Position numbers and translations under genes: made by a program | NCBI GenBank assembly: GCA_021769425.1 | Contig: JAETSX010000017.1 | Span: 1-64,000 of the forward strand | Length of the DNA: 64,000 bases | Source of the DNA: Eubacterium sp. | Lineage (GTDB): Bacteria; Bacillota; Clostridia; Lachnospirales; Lachnospiraceae | Direction: 5' to 3' | The notes under the pieces: model-generated | Told to the model about the DNA's origin: nothing | The model's database searches: none | What the model saw: the letters and a program-made list of their open reading frames with translations, nothing else | Part shown: piece after piece, positions 51,534-64,000 of the stretch | Position numbering within the stretch: position 1 is the first letter of the stretch | How the letters are laid out: every line of letters begins with the position of its first letter

Positions 51534-52538
51534 ATGGAAAAAGAAAGGGAAGGTATGCAGGATTTAACACATGTCAGCCTGTTTACGGGCATTGGCGGCC
51601 TTGACCTTGCGGCAGAGATGGCAGGGTTCCGTACCATTGCGCAGTGTGAGTGGGCTGATTTTCAGAATGAGATATTGGAAAAACAATGGAGGGATGTGCC
51701 TAGATTCAAGGACATCCGGGATTTGAACAGGGAGGAGTTTTATGCGAGAACAAACGAAAGAAATGTTACGCTTATCTCAGGGGGATTCCCCTGCCAGCCG
51801 TTTTCCTTTGCCGGGAGACGCAGGGGCTTTGAAGATGACCGTTACCTCTGGCCGGAAATGCTTAGAGTCATCAGAGAGCTCTCCCCCGCTTGGGTGCTTG
51901 GAGAAAATGTTGCTGGGTTCCTGGGTATGGGACTCGAACAGACGGTTTCTGATTTGGAAGGAGCAGGTTATGAAGTCCGGGCTTTCGTACTACCTGCTCT
52001 CGCCGTCGGCGCGTGGCATGAGAGGAAACGGGTATTCATTGCCGGACACCTGGCCGACGCCGGTGGCGGCCATTGGGAAGATGGATGTTTCCACTGCCCT
52101 CATTGGCAGGATGAAGAAAACGGGAACATTAAAGAAACTCAACTCGACGGGGACGCTCTGGAACCCCAACCTGCAGATGCGGGTATTCTGTACCCCGGAG
52201 GTAATGGAGCAGACGGGGACCGGGTTCCACGAACCGGAGACGGAGGAGCAGAGGGAGCTTTTTACGGAAGTCACGGAACTTTCCATGAAACAGCACAAAC
52301 TCAACCCAGAGTGGGTGGAATGGCTGATGGGCTTCCCGGTTGGATGGACGGACATAGGATGTGGGAAAAAGAGCCGGAGGGTGTAAGCCGCATTACGAGA
52401 CCTTACCCGCTGTGGGGCAGCCGTATGTTTTCGCTTGGGAATGCGGTGGTGCCGCAGCAGGCCTATCCGATACTGAAGTGTATTGCGGATATTGAGATGG
52501 GCAGGTGCAGGTCTTTCTGTCCGGAGAAGAAACAGTAG
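51534..52538 (+). CDS. C5-cytosine DNA methyltransferase
   Basis: The 334-residue enzyme has motif I (SLFTGIGGLDLAAEMAG), motif IV with catalytic Cys (GGFPCQPFSFAGRRRG), motif VI (LGENVAGF), motif VIII-like HERKRVFIAG and the C-terminal motif X SLGNAVVPQQAYPILK. It likely methylates cytosine at a short site and protects the element from host restriction during transfer. It sits between prgI and virB4. From 51742 to 52386 the same DNA carries a second long frame with its own start (separate entry). ATG 51534 has GGGGAGGTG upstream. Confidence 0.9.
   Translation: MEKEREGMQDLTHVSLFTGIGGLDLAAEMAGFRTIAQCEWADFQNEILEKQWRDVPRFKDIRDLNREEFYARTNERNVTLISGGFPCQPFSFAGRRRGFEDDRYLWPEMLRVIRELSPAWVLGENVAGFLGMGLEQTVSDLEGAGYEVRAFVLPALAVGAWHERKRVFIAGHLADAGGGHWEDGCFHCPHWQDEENGNIKETQLDGDALEPQPADAGILYPGGNGADGDRVPRTGDGGAEGAFYGSHGTFHETAQTQPRVGGMADGLPGWMDGHRMWEKEPEGVSRITRPYPLWGSRMFSLGNAVVPQQAYPILKCIADIEMGRCRSFCPEKKQ
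51742..52386 (+). CDS. nested ORF overprinted on the cytosine methyltransferase gene
   Basis: A 214-residue open frame, +1 to the methyltransferase, begins at ATG 51742 with a strong site (GGAGGAG, 51731-51737) a few bases upstream. Its sequence has the look of the tail of phage-type DNA methylases: NGYSLPDTWPTPVAA in the middle and LNPEWVEWLMGFPVGWTD near the end. Those motifs are recognisable in other methyltransferase proteins, so this is unlikely to be chance openness. It could be a separate small protein or the trace of an ancestral frame switch. Expression unproven. Confidence 0.5.
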   Translation: MREQTKEMLRLSQGDSPASRFPLPGDAGALKMTVTSGRKCLESSESSPPLGCLEKMLLGSWVWDSNRRFLIWKEQVMKSGLSYYLLSPSARGMRGNGYSLPDTWPTPVAAIGKMDVSTALIGRMKKTGTLKKLNSTGTLWNPNLQMRVFCTPEVMEQTGTGFHEPETEEQRELFTEVTELSMKQHKLNPEWVEWLMGFPVGWTDIGCGKKSRRV

Positions 52539-58204: not shown

Positions 58205-61200
58205 ATGGGAGTAGAATATATGGCTCGCCAGATATATCAGGATGTGGTTTCCAGGGTGACGCAGACTGAGGCGGACTGGAAGGCAGTCTGCCGTCTGGCA
58301 GGGCGGATATATCGGTATGAGTTTGACAATGTGCTTATGGTGTATGCACAGAGGCCGTCTGCCACGCTGGTTGCGGATTATGATACATGGAAAAAGGTAC
58401 GCCGCCATGTGAAACGGGACAGTAAAGGAATTGCCATCTTTCCATCGAGGATATTAAAGCCGGGGATGCGTTATGTGTTTGACATTGGCGATACCGGAGG
58501 GAAAAACGTAAAGCTGGCGTGGGATTTGGAGGGGGAAAACCTGCCGGATTTGCTGTCGGCACTCCGGAAACGGGGAGAAATTGCGGAAGTATTAGGAACA
58601 GACAGGAAAAGCTGGCTAAAGCAGCTGAAAGCCTTTACAAAGCAAGAAGTGTGCGGTATTCTAAAAGAGGACTTCGGTAAGCAGCTTGCCGAGGCCGCCA
58701 TGCTTGCAGGACGTGAGATAACTGGCGGAGAGAATGAAACGCCAGAGCTTACCGCACAGAAATTGATTTTTAACAGCATTTTCTATGCGGTGGGGACAAG
58801 ATGCGGATTTGACTTAAGCAGCGAAGAACAGGACTTAGGTGCAATAGTTAATGTGAAAGATGAGGGCAGCATTAGCGTACTTGGTACTCTGGTAAGTGAC
58901 GTATCCTGTACCGTTCTTCGGAATATTGGCCGTGAAATAATGGGTATTGAACAGGGAAGAAAGCGGGCTGCATATCTGCAGCAGAATCTTTCCGGAAAAG
59001 GAGGCAGGAATGGCACTAGCAATCAGTTACCACGAGGGGACAGACGGGATGCTGTACCCGGACATCAAAGCAGCGGAACAGACGGAAACAGGGACGTTAG
59101 GGAAGTTCGGAATCATGGCGATGGAATATTTGGAGGAAAATTACCCGCAGAGATACCGGAGCCTGATACGGTTCGGCAACCTCTACCCAAAACTGAAAGA
59201 AGTGGAGGAGGAGGCAGGCCGGATGTTGGAAAGTCTCATGGAGAAGTATCTGGAAAGCCACAGGCCGGAGAATCCGGAATCCACAATGGAGATGTTACGC
59301 ATCCGGAAACAGGGGATGATGGAGGCAGAGGAGATTATCCGTCACGACCTGATAAACCAATTTCATTAGAAACGCAGGAAGAATTAGACAGGGAGCAGGA
59401 TGACTTAAATTCATTTGGTACGGAAAGGGAGGCCGTTTTCAGACAGGCTTCTCTTTTTGATTATAAAGAAACAGGGATTGACAGCTATGCGATTCCTGAC
59501 GAGGCAGACCAAATGGGAGTGCCGGATGCCGTGCGTTTTGAGCAACGGCAAAAAATAAATAACTATCATGTCGCTTATGAAGATTCGGAGGGAAAAGAGA
59601 AAAAAGAACCAGTTTCGGAGTCTGCTGACACCAGAGAAAAAGAACAGGTTCCGGCAGCAGAAACTGAAAATATAATGCTGCCACAGCCCCATAATTATGT
59701 CATTGACATTCACAAACAGGAGACCGGCGGGGAAAAGGCACGCTATAAGTGGAACGTGGATGCCATAAAAACATTAAAGCAGATAGAGACAGAAAACGGG
59801 CACGCCACGCCGGAGGAGCAGGAAATCCTTGCCAGGTATGCCGGGTGGGGCGGCACGTCACAGGCATTTGATGAAAAAAGCGAAAGCTGGCGGAAAGAAT
59901 ATGCGGAGTTGAAGGAACTCCTTACCCCAGAGGAATACCGGGAGGCAAGGGCAACGGTCACGACTGCTTTCTACACACCGCCTGCGGTAGCTGCTGCCGT
60001 TGGAGAGGCGCTGGTGCAGTTTGGCTTTGCCGGAGGAAATGTGCTGGAGCCCTCTGTAGGGACAGGGCATTTCTTTGGGACCATGCCGGAGCAGCTATGG
60101 GGCAGCAGACTTTTTGGCGTGGAGAAAGACAGCATCAGCGGCAGGATTGCAAAACTTCTGTACCCGGGGGCAGATATACAGATAAAAGGGTTTGAGGAAA
60201 CAGACTTCCCGGACAACTTTTTTGACGTTGTGGTGGGGAATGTCCCATTCGGGGATTTTAAGGTCTACGACAGGAAGTACAATGCAGAGAATTTCAAAAT
60301 CCACGACTACTTTGTGGCAAAGTCCATAGACAAAGTACGTCCGGGCGGCATTGTTGCCGTGATTACCACGAAAGGGACAATGGATAAGAAAAACAGCAGT
60401 GTCCGTAAATATCTGGCGCAGCGTGCGGAACTTGCCGGGGCGGTCAGGCTGCCGAACAGCGCTTTCAAGGCAGAGGCAGGGACGGAAGTCACCAGTGATA
60501 TTTTGTTTTTCCAGAAAAGGGAACGGAAAATATCGGCGGAGCCGGGCTGGGTTCACCTCGGCATGACGGAAAATGGAGTGCCTGTCAATTCGTATTTCGT
60601 GGAACACCCGGAGATGATGTTAGGCCGCATGGAGTATGATACCGGCAGGTATGGCAGTGATGCGGGATATACAGTATGTGTCAATGACAGGGAAGATTTT
60701 GACCTGTATGGGGCATTGCAGCAGGCGGTAAGCCGCCTTTTGGTGCAGATGCCGGATTATGAAATCTTACAGGAGGGGGAACCGGAGGAGAGCATACCGG
60801 CTGATCCGGATGTAAAGAATTACACCTACACGTTTGTGGATGGGGCACTGTATTACCGGAAAGATTCACGGATGCACCGGCAGGAAGTGGGAAATACCGT
60901 GTTTGGACGCATAAGGGGAATGGATAAACTGCGGAAATGCACCAGACACCTGATAGACATCCAGTTAAACGGGTGCAGTGAGAAAGAACTGAATGCAGCA
61001 CAGGGGGAATTAAATTCCATATATGACAGCTTTACAAAAAAATACGGTTATATCACTTCACAGGGTAATTCGAGGGCCTTCCGGGACGACGAGGATTACC
61101 CTCTTTTATGTTCACTGGAAATGGTGGATGCGGAGAATGGCGCTGTCACCAAAGCGGATATGTTTACGAAACAGACCATACGGGCAAGGAGGGAAATGGA

Positions 61201-64000
61201 CCATGCAGAGACAGCGGTGGAGGCCCTCAACCTTTCCATATGTGAGTACAACGGCGTCAATCTTCCGTATATGCTGCAGATTTATGAGCCGGACATCAGC
61301 GGATATGCAGAAAAACTCAGGGAAAGGCAGAAAGATATGCAGGAAGAAATTCTCCTTTCTGTGGCTGACGGAGGAGAATTAAAGAGAGAAAAACTGATTG
61401 AGGAGCTGAAAGGCGTTATCTTCCTGAATCCGCAGAAATACCTTACGCATGATAAAAACCAGGGATGGGAGACAGCGGATGAGTACCTGTCCGGCAATGT
61501 CCGGGACAAGCTGCGTGTGGCAAAAGCAGCAGCGGGCGAACACCCGGAACTGTTCGGGGATAACGTGGCAGCGTTAGAACAGGTGCAGCCGCGGGATTTG
61601 GATGCCGGGGAGATAGATGTGAGGATTGGCACGACATGGATTGAGCCGGAGGACTATGAGAAATTCCTTTATGAAACGCTGCACACGCCAAAACGGGCGC
61701 AGGCGAGGAGACATGACTATGGTTCTTCCGGGATACAGGTGCAGCTGAATAAGTTCCGGATGGAATGGTTTGTTGAGAATAAACCTTTAGACAATACTTC
61801 AGTGGCGGCAACCAAAACCTACGGTACGTCAAGGATGGACGCTTATACTATTTTTGAAAGCACGCTGAACCTGCGCACCGTGACGGTTCGGGATCGGATT
61901 GAAGATGGTGGGGGAAAGCACCATTATGAAACGAACCAGAAGGAGACCATGCTGGCAAGGGAAAAACAGAACCAGTTAAAAGAGGCGTTCCGGGACTGGA
62001 TATTTGCAGAGCCAAAGCGGAGGAATAAATATGTCGGTTATTATAATGAGACCTTTAACAATGTAAGGCTGCGGGAGTATGACGGCAGCCATTTACAGTT
62101 TCCCGGCATGAACCCGGATATCCGGCTAAAGCCGCACCAGAGGAATGCCATTGCAAGGATTCTGATGGGAGGGAACACCCTGCTTGCCCACTGCGTGGGT
62201 GCAGGCAAGAGTTTTGAGATGATGGCGGCGTGTATGGAACAGAAACGTCTGGGGCTTTCTAACAAAACGGTCATGGTAGTGCCAAAGCCGCTGATCGGGC
62301 AGACTGCCAGTGAGTTCCTGCGCCTTTATCCCTCTGCAAACATTCTGGTGGCTGCCGAGAGGGATTTTGAGAAACACAGGAGAAAGCAGTTTATCTCCCG
62401 CATTGCCACTGGGGACTATGACTGCATCATCATGTCGCACTCGCAGTTTGAGAAAATCCCGGTATCAAAGGAAAGGAGGGAAATGCTGTTAAACCGCCAG
62501 ATTGACGACATCAGCTTTGCCATTGCGGAAATGAAGGAGCGCAACCGGGAGCGGTGGACCGTCAAGCAGATGGAGGCACAGAGAACGCGGATGGAGGAGC
62601 AGCTGCGGGAAATGGCGGATGAGGAGCGGAAGGATGACCTCATTACCTTTGAGGAACTCGGCATTGACTCCATCATGGTGGACGAGGCACACGCGTTTAA
62701 GAATCTCGCCGTATTTTCAAAAATGAACGTGTCGGGGATAACCGGCAGCGGCAGCCAGAGGGCAATGGACATGTACCTCAAATGCCAGTATGTCAATGAG
62801 ATAAACAATGGGAGGGGGATTGTCTTTGCCACGGGGACGCCGGTCAGCAATACAATGTGTGAGATGTACGTCATGCAGCAGTTTCTGCAGAAAGACACAT
62901 TAGAGCAGCTTGGGATTTACCATTTTGACAGCTGGGCGGCTAATTTCGGGGAGCAGACAACGGCTCTGGAACTTACTGTTGAGGGCAGCGGGTTCCGGTT
63001 CAAGACAAGGTTTAATAAATTTACCAACCTGCCGGAGCTGATGAACATTTTCCGGGAGGCAGCGGACATCCAGACAAGGGACATGCTGGACCTTGACGCC
63101 CCGGAACTGCGGGGCGGGAAATATATCATCGTGGAGAGCGAGCCGGACTGGTATGTGAGGCAGGTCATGGAAACTTTTGTCCGGCGGGCGGAGGCAATCC
63201 GTGACGGCGGTGTCGATCCGAAAGTAGACAATTTCCTTAAAATCACCCATGAGGCAAGGCTGTTAGGCACAGATGCAAGGCTTTTAACCCCGGACGCACC
63301 GGGGAGCGTGGATGGCAAGTTAAATAAAGTGGTGGAAAATGTGCTGTATGAATACCGTAAGGCAGAAAGTGAGGGGAAAGTAGGCACACAGCTTATCTTT
63401 TCGGATATTGGCACGCCGAAACGTTCATGGAGCCGGGATATGTTAAACACACCGTGGCATGAAATAGGAAGTTTTGATGTTTATAATTATATCAAGACGG
63501 AACTGGTAAAGCAGGGCATTCCGGCGGAGGAAATCGCATTCATACACGATTCCAAAACAGACGCACAGAGGGACGTCCTGTTCCGTGAAATGCGTTCCGG
63601 CATAAAAAAGGTGCTGATTGGCTCTACGGACAAATGCGGCACCGGCGTCAACGTGCAGACGCACCTTGTGGCAATGCACCACTGCGACTGCCCGTGGAAA
63701 CCCTCAAGCATAGAACAGCGTGAGGGCAGGGGACTCAGACAGGGCAATGAGAATGATGAGGTTGCCGTGTACCGCTATGTGACAAAAGGGACCTTTGACG
63801 CATACAGTTGGGCGCTGGTCGAAAACAAGCAGCGCTTTATCTCACAGGTAATGACAGGGAAATCCATATCAAGGACCTGTGAGGATATTGACGAGGCAGT
63901 CCTCTCCTATGCGGAGATAAAGGCTGTGGCTACTGGGAATCCGATGATAAAAGAAAAAATGCAGACAGACAATGACGTGCAGCGTCTGAAAATGCTGAAA
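58205..64000 (+). CDS. giant ArdC-like/N6-DNA-methylase/SNF2-helicase protein (3' end beyond window)
   Basis: The frame is open for 1,932 codons to the window edge. It has an ArdC-N-like ssDNA-binding region (about 1-130, [20 protein letters not shown]) and a low-complexity Gly/Arg/Asp/Pro linker (about 265-390). An N6-adenine methylase fold follows ([13 protein letters not shown] near 612; GNVPFGDF near 678 as NPPF variant). A SNF2-type helicase is last, with [13 protein letters not shown] (near 1328), DEAH in [10 protein letters not shown] (near 1492), [10 protein letters not shown] and [14 protein letters not shown]. Such proteins accompany Tn1549-like elements and probably protect or unwind element DNA. 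The linker DNA also encodes a TnpV-like frame. Confidence 0.88.
59010..59369 (+). CDS. TnpV-like protein nested in the helicase gene (alternate frame)
   Basis: ATG 59010 follows a near-ideal site AAAAGGAGG (58996-59004) at 5-bp spacing and opens a 119-residue frame: [40 protein letters not shown], ending [14 protein letters not shown]. The layout (short beta start, GKYGRMR-like block, charged helices, final EEII) matches the transposon-encoded TnpV family as I know it. It lies in the +1 frame wholly inside the low-complexity linker of the giant helicase, and both frames are free of stops. Probably a real overlapping gene. TnpV function itself is unclear. Confidence 0.65.

Follow-up and report, generated by a model that had tools for sequence, protein, structure and literature searches.

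A tnpV-family gene nested out of frame in the linker of DarB-like methylase-helicase genes: a probable dual-coding pair

Introduction

Can one stretch of bacterial DNA be kept for two proteins that are read from the same strand in different frames? Long co-directional overlaps in prokaryotes remain an open question, since a 2008 survey of 968 overlaps of more than 60 bp (715 of them co-directional) reported, in the portions cited here, no real co-directional prokaryotic case (PMC2478687), whereas small or overlapping genes were called prevalent in 2025 (PMC12350097). The question is raised again by a 64,000-nt stretch of DNA from Eubacterium sp. (contig JAETSX010000017.1, positions 1 to 64,000; hereafter the window), for which an initial annotation had described a TnpV-like gene lying out of frame inside the linker of a giant helicase/methylase. 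We propose that this locus is probably a true dual-coding gene pair (probability about 0.9), a reading that appears supported about as well as sequence alone allows. The overlap, of ~360 bp, was seen in Clostridia, Bacilli and Tissierellia with selection readable in each frame, and offers a naturally occurring case in which to study how a stretch of DNA can serve two genes over long periods.

Results and discussion

A DarB-like gene with a tnpV frame in its linker

The host gene, carried by a gut-bacterial mobile element, occupies positions 58205–64000 of the forward strand, its frame being open from 58205 beyond the window end (2151 aa of open frame in the contig). Its product joins an adenine methylase to an SNF2-type helicase, the combination that marks a DarB-like polyvalent protein, according to Pfam matches to Eco57I (30.9, cut-off 25.3), SNF2-rel_dom (29.2, cut-off 24.9) and Helicase_C (33.5, cut-off 23.5), with a match to DEAD as well. 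The start of the conserved methylase module (P0004, 59690–60560, +), which served as a TnpV-independent query, matched P1 DarB at 34.5% identity across 75% of the query (tblastn). The N-terminal domain (58220–58993, +; model residues 1–258) matched the structure of ArdC (6i89) in Foldseek with a probability of 1.00 and an E-value of 3.4e-3, and scored 20.2 bits against PF08401 (ArdcN), under the cut-off of 22.6. Overall, the host protein resembles the ArdC/DarB 'polyvalent' antirestriction proteins. The polyvalent proteins of conjugative elements, which have been proposed to enter recipients together with DNA, have been described with ArdC-N, adenine methylase and SNF2 ATPase domains, and a domain that precedes the methylase, LPD36, was named for the DarB-like members (PMC5512222). 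With the DarB-like polyvalent proteins that carry ArdC-N the host shares the adenine methylase and the SNF2 helicase, besides an N-terminus that resembles ArdC; neither TnpV nor 'overlapping' occurs in the main text of that paper (0 instances each; PMC5512222).

The nested gene, tnpV (59010–59369, +), starts with ATG and encodes 119 aa in the +1 frame of the helicase, such that its second codon position is the helicase wobble base. It scored 81.2 bits (E = 6.9e-23) against the Pfam family TnpV (PF14198; curated cut-off 27), residues 11–115 aligning onto positions 5–111 of the 111-position model, which bears out the family assignment that had been proposed from resemblance. The gene was also said to have its own start signals, and it does: a ribosome-binding site, AAAAGGAGG (58996–59004, +), lies within the host reading frame at a spacing of 5 nt from the ATG. 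TTG at 58947 is an alternative start in the same frame, and the ATG at 59010 was preferred because both the ribosome site and the homologues favour it. Among 36 thinned homologues, a GAAAGGAG-like block at -16 to -9 of tnpV was conserved above its flanks.

Across 59010–59369 the host frame is open, and its reading of these bases is a low-pLDDT, probably disordered linker (helicase residues 269–389; 59009–59371, +); the linker is thus the out-of-frame reading of tnpV, as the initial annotation had held, and its further suggestion that this would explain the odd linkers of such helicases was upheld for these helicases as a class. The window linker contains G 19, P 11, D 10 and R 9%, and over homologues the main residues were G 15.9, A 10.8, D 10.6, R 10.2, E 10.1 and P 9.1%. 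This composition correlated with that of the same frame of standalone TnpV genes (r = 0.67) and with that of the host N-terminal domain (r = 0.58). The hydrophilic share was 89% in the linker vs 76% in the same frame of standalone TnpVs, and there may be some compositional selection, or selected codon choice, in the linker. In a model of the host N-terminus and linker (alignment of 37 rows), block means of pLDDT were 72–96 up to residue 260 and 29–51 across the tnpV footprint (model residues 264–384), and stayed low (32–50) beyond the footprint through the model end at residue 483. The model therefore agrees with a disordered linker yet does not delimit the tnpV footprint.

Nesting recurs in most related helicase genes examined

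A scan with the PF14198 profile found 11 matching stretches in the genome of origin and none in 14 control genomes. At four of these loci (L002, L004, L007 and L008, the last being that of the window) tnpV lay within a long open frame in identical relative phase, and the helicases of the other three shared 22–43% identity with the window helicase over the aligned N-terminal part. Three TnpVs of the same genome were standalone (L001, L003 and L006, with 7, 5 and 3 stops in the frame corresponding to the host), and the matches at L005 (two pieces), L009 and L010 were partial or interrupted. PF14198 was present in 46 of 80 relatives; among the 29 loci retained from these, mostly the best match of each genome, 4 were nested (L028, L031, L033 and L034) and 25 were not.

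Sampling by host gave a different picture. A profile of four helicase N-termini, without TnpV, gave 308 confirmed stretches in genome contigs, of which the best 80 were kept, and 4 loci in viral contigs; a TnpV followed on the same strand in 78 of the resulting 84 loci, 724–886 nt from the start of the N-terminus and in the +1 phase every time (78/78). Compared with 4 of 29 in the TnpV-based sample, these counts indicate that nesting is the rule for these helicases and not for TnpVs. As to the six loci without TnpV, the contig ended first in four (L073, L107, L121 and L122), and at the other two (L097 and L100) the helicase frame ended early and no TnpV was found. The host frame was open over tnpV in 75 of the 78, the exceptions being L059 (contig end) and L099 and L112 (stop). 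These last two, on contigs of one MAG (JAJQCB01), had a host stop within the overlap and an intact TnpV. One locus (L113) comes from a MAG labelled Smithella and may be contamination.

All 78 nested TnpVs had an in-frame ATG, and the ribosome-site match was 4 nt or longer in each case. A match of 6–7 nt preceded 59 of 73 complete TnpV starts, cf. matches of at least 6 nt at 23 of 3754 other +1-frame ATGs, the TnpV start in both counts having been picked as the start codon that scored best close to the profile match, a choice that somewhat favours TnpV; the remaining 14 had a 4-nt match, a level also reached by 17% of other ATGs. Across homologues, then, the nested frame proved to be open, with start and ribosome site, instead of holding many stop codons.

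A second sample of 199 genomes, drawn from the phylum and chosen regardless of TnpV, was searched with P0004. It yielded 16 strong helicase copies (E < 1e-70) outside the genome of origin, with TnpV nested in the +1 phase in 15, including those of G105 (25.5 bits, under the PF14198 cut-off) and G108 (30.6 bits); the exception (L183, in G224) had a different N-terminus, a short linker and no TnpV. In this sample, TnpVs with the helicase N-terminus upstream were all free of host-frame stops, and all full-length TnpVs without it had at least one, except L142 (in G148). The L142 TnpV, free of stops in the frame that a host would use, could have escaped only recently. On plasmids, 16 helicases were picked by methylase match among the 60 rows listed from 1895 records, and 11 of them held a nested TnpV in an open host frame; one more (L195) had a TnpV in +1 phase to the N-terminus with a broken host frame, and four (L198, L201, L203 and L205) had no TnpV. 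By taxonomy lines, nested tnpV was seen in Clostridia, Bacilli and Tissierellia. On a viral contig (L187), a helicase whose N-terminus differs has a Gly-rich linker, the +1 frame of which resembles TnpV very weakly (16.2 bits, E = 5e-4); this might be a far-diverged nested TnpV.

The host frame is kept free of stops

Host-frame stops were counted in 81 nested TnpVs, near-copies included (73 of the 78 above plus L002, L004, L007, L008, L028, L031, L033 and L034, leaving out the incomplete L059, L083 and L106 and the stop-bearing L099 and L112), and in 26 standalone TnpVs (without L005, L006, L009, L010 and L027). All 81 nested genes had 0 stops, compared with 2–12 in the standalone genes. When the nested proteins were recoded with standalone codons, 5.8 stops appeared on average and the frame was open in 0.2% of draws; when synonymous codons were shuffled within each gene, 2.2 stops appeared and the frame was open in 8%. 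GC content was 0.46 in standalone and 0.56 in nested TnpVs. That the host frame has been kept open beyond chance suggests that it is read across tnpV.

Purifying selection is seen on TnpV and not on the host amino acids

Among 25 disjoint pairs of nested loci (mean divergence 0.054), differences fell at first, second and third TnpV codon positions in the numbers 123, 83 and 247, so that third positions took 247 of 453. The corresponding dN/dS was 0.27 for TnpV (95% interval 0.23–0.32) and 1.26 for the host over the same bases (1.02–1.63), and 33 pairs at a divergence of 0.12–0.35 gave 0.39 and 1.35; these are simple ratios from an OLGenie-like count, uncorrected for transition bias and multiple hits, so the host values above 1 are not read as positive selection. 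A second estimator, with only 63–80 doubly synonymous sites behind it, gave 0.16–0.23 for TnpV and 0.76 (0.48–1.63), 0.82 (0.58–1.33) and 0.78 (0.62–1.04) for the host (SN/SS), all three intervals including 1. Standalone TnpVs, in only 3, 6 and 9 pairs, gave 0.29, 0.23 and 0.28 in their own frame; their hostless frame gave 1.03, 0.70 and 0.86, or 0.41, 0.68 and 0.81 by the second estimator. The host itself was constrained on either side of the overlap, with a dN/dS of 0.14 in close pairs and 0.28 in the wider bin upstream (the ArdC-like domain) and of 0.36 and 0.49 downstream. Between the window and its nearest relative (L123), differences numbered 8, 6 and 23 by TnpV position (dN/dS 0.21 for TnpV vs 1.51 for the host), and the distant pair of window and L007 gave 0.66 and 1.74.

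Within the overlap, therefore, TnpV appears to be under purifying selection and none was seen on the host amino acids; the selection detectable on the host frame takes the form of stop avoidance. The substitution test that the initial annotation had called for, dN/dS and codon positions in both frames, thus came out with purifying selection in the nested frame and not in the amino acids of the helicase.

Two products or one

Annotation tends to show one gene of the pair only. On E. faecalis p1207_3 and L. seeligeri p60 an SNF2-related CDS is given and the nested TnpV has no entry, although the gene table of PLSDB is incomplete and a missing entry there is weak evidence. In a Monoglobus record, TnpV is annotated and the helicase is begun downstream of it, and a Cohnella record has TnpV and no helicase entry; the helicase frame is open throughout in both. 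At the annotated TnpVs of L190 and L191 the helicase frame is open.

Such tables could be taken to mean that one frame alone is used. Translation of the helicase alone, with TnpV as a fossil or a chance open frame, accords with the two plasmid tables that list the helicase alone, and is very improbable: a fossil is ruled out by the dN/dS of 0.27, with more than half of all differences at third positions, a chance frame by recurrence, stop counts and selection together, and the TnpV start and ribosome site are conserved in a sequence similar to standalone TnpV genes. The converse is that TnpV alone is translated here, that the ArdC-like domain and the methylase-helicase are made as separate proteins, and that nothing but accident leaves the host frame open. 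It fits the lack of visible purifying selection on host amino acids and some annotations that place the methylase start downstream of the nested gene. It is nonetheless improbable, if less so, because an unread helicase frame is disfavoured by the stop avoidance (0 stops in 81, against 5.8 or 2.2 expected and 2–12 in standalone TnpVs) and because a constrained domain (dN/dS 0.14) lies upstream in the same host frame.

Under dual coding, we envisage a single message, from which read-through would give the ArdC-like/methylase/SNF2 megaprotein and internal initiation at the strong ribosome site would give the small helical protein TnpV by +1-frame reading. To the host the tnpV stretch would be only a tether, hydrophilic and probably disordered, that links the ArdC-like head to the methylase. 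Since few demands beyond the absence of stops would be made on the sequence of such a tether, the overlap would be evolutionarily cheap. The +1 phase fits this tether because the T at second positions of TnpV codons (hydrophobic residues) becomes the host wobble base, favouring codons of the G/R/D/E/A/P type, as we infer from the genetic code. Phase-1 bias has a compositional null, however (PMC2542354), so phase alone is no evidence of selection.

One DNA stretch thus appears to make two proteins, an arrangement that would account for linkers rich in Gly, Arg, Asp, Glu and Pro across a widespread class of proteins and would link TnpV to antirestriction proteins for which entry into recipients along with the DNA has been proposed (PMC5512222). 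The overlap is co-directional and longer than 60 bp, like those surveyed in 2008, and passes orthologue and selection tests, whereas the cited portions of that survey record no real case (PMC2478687). As in overprinted viral genes, two proteins share one stretch in different frames (PMC8227390); unlike the examples considered there, the pair belongs to a bacterial mobile element, spans several classes and has a constrained nested gene. We found no description of a tnpV nested in another gene in the portions of the open-licence literature that were searched.

Origin of the overlap

Pairwise distances between TnpVs and between helicase N-termini were correlated at r = 0.90 (n = 36 loci; p = 0.001 from 999 permutations, the highest of which reached 0.25), as expected if the two had joined long ago and been inherited together. 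A TnpV tree of similarity-thinned rows (59 nested, 30 standalone) has few well-supported forks and is read as unrooted. In it, 27 of the 30 standalone rows formed one group (SH-aLRT 92) and three fell elsewhere, for a minimum of 4 changes of state, or 5 without the two longest branches. A single clade of all standalone rows was marginally rejected (p-AU 0.048, the group having been named after the tree was first seen), and a clade of the 27-row core was not rejected (p-AU 0.86). Among the helicases examined, with and without TnpV, there was no clean unfused ancestor.

The initial annotation had suggested that tnpV was captured when the genes on either side of it fused in frame, and we infer the same: tnpV would most likely have stood with an ArdC-like gene on one side and a DarB-like gene on the other until, early in the history of Bacillota, the host frame came to run through it by extension or fusion, both being inherited together since. 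It is less likely that TnpV was born de novo inside the helicase linker and that standalone copies escaped from it, as could be read from the nested TnpVs spanning the tree, the 27-row standalone group lying inside nested diversity under midpoint rooting, and the rejection, albeit marginal, of a single standalone clade. The minimum of 4 (or 5) changes does not tell which state came first, and constraint on TnpV, with hardly any on the linker, makes the linker look like the derived one of the two readings. At two loci (L001 and L018), by eye, a standalone TnpV starts 185 and 19 nt past a helicase fragment. TnpV-bearing cargoes inserted in snf2 genes have been described in Streptococcus suis (PMC9815147), so genes with a nested tnpV in place may be targets of elements that carry TnpV.

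What TnpV may do

The predicted structure of TnpV (pLDDT 87.9, the first 30 residues being weaker) is a hairpin followed by four helices. No match at an E-value of 0.001 or better was found by Foldseek in the PDB or the viral models of BFVD, the best BFVD row being an uncharacterised siphovirus protein (probability 0.98, E = 0.16), and a profile search of PDB sequences likewise gave nothing at 0.001 or better (best E = 0.082). In PHROGs, TnpV matched phrog_24764, annotated as of unknown function. Xis-like excisionases have a small winged-helix DNA-binding fold, and the TnpV of Tn4451 is linked to a large serine recombinase. The TnpVs of Tn4451/Tn6104-type elements (PMC3158075) belong to the same family by the curated cut-off of PF14198; in the parts of that source considered they appear as ordinary genes, whereas tnpV here is wholly inside another gene in the +1 frame. 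Copies of tnpV have also been described beside tet(O) and in IMEs (PMC11913394, PMC9815147).

As a guess, TnpV might be an accessory made together with the antirestriction protein for entry of the element. The main alternative is that TnpV is an excisionase-like recombination factor and its nesting a neutral accident of element packing. For the TnpV of Tn4451, homology with lambda Xis led to a postulated role in excision (PMC3158075), and serine recombinase ORFs adjoin 2 of 10 standalone loci inspected by eye (L022 and L026); yet the modelled hairpin and four helices had no Foldseek match at the above threshold, and nesting that has been retained across classes is hard to call neutral, so we regard this alternative as doubtful. 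Mimicry of DNA by an acidic TnpV was considered and set aside, since the window copy has a net charge of -8 but the nested median is -2.

Other nested frames in related genes

Another +1 ORF was found in the corresponding linker of a Burkholderia plasmid helicase (L205); its 100-aa product was found in 66 plasmid records (tblastn). The host frame was open through this gene, in the same phase, in 9 of 10 loci examined (L205–L212 and L214), and at the tenth (L213) the gene was standalone with 5 stops in the host frame. A QLxFDF-like stretch seen by eye upstream in the host frame in 6 of the 9 (L205, L206, L207, L211, L212 and L214) argues that the host starts upstream of the 100-aa gene; gene tables give that gene plus a later host start for L205, L211, L212 and L214, and the host only for L206–L210. 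Three pairs gave a dN/dS of 0.44 for the nested and 1.61 for the host frame (0.57 and 1.88 with a fourth, distant pair). Homology between TnpV and this Pseudomonadota protein was not detected by hhalign (probability 0.2%, E = 0.33, with a profile of only 7 rows), and no relative of the latter was confirmed in a scan of viral contigs.

Overprinted linkers might be a general device of antirestriction and methylase genes of mobile elements, whose linkers would repeatedly contain complete small genes in the +1 phase, with TnpV, the apparently unrelated Pseudomonadota protein and a frame in a cytosine methylase as independent instances: a hydrophilic, disordered linker would tend to arise from +1 nesting of a helical protein, and the small protein would be made, and would probably act, with the megaprotein. 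We hold this generalisation tentatively, at slightly less than even confidence.

The cytosine methylase gene of the window (51534–52538) contains a 214-aa ORF in its +1 frame (51742–52386, +). Both frames were open in 13 of 13 loci, the window included and several of them near-copies. The 214-aa ORF had no Pfam match, and no start was found for it. Substitutions fitted the methylase frame in the first 105 codons and mostly the nested frame after that, ending near LNPEWVEWLMGFPVGWTD. By nested codon position they numbered 11, 11 and 35 between L215 and L219, and were flat (55, 53 and 54) in the distant pair L220/L215. The ORF is a candidate either for a second overprinted stretch or for a frameshifted alternative end of the methylase.
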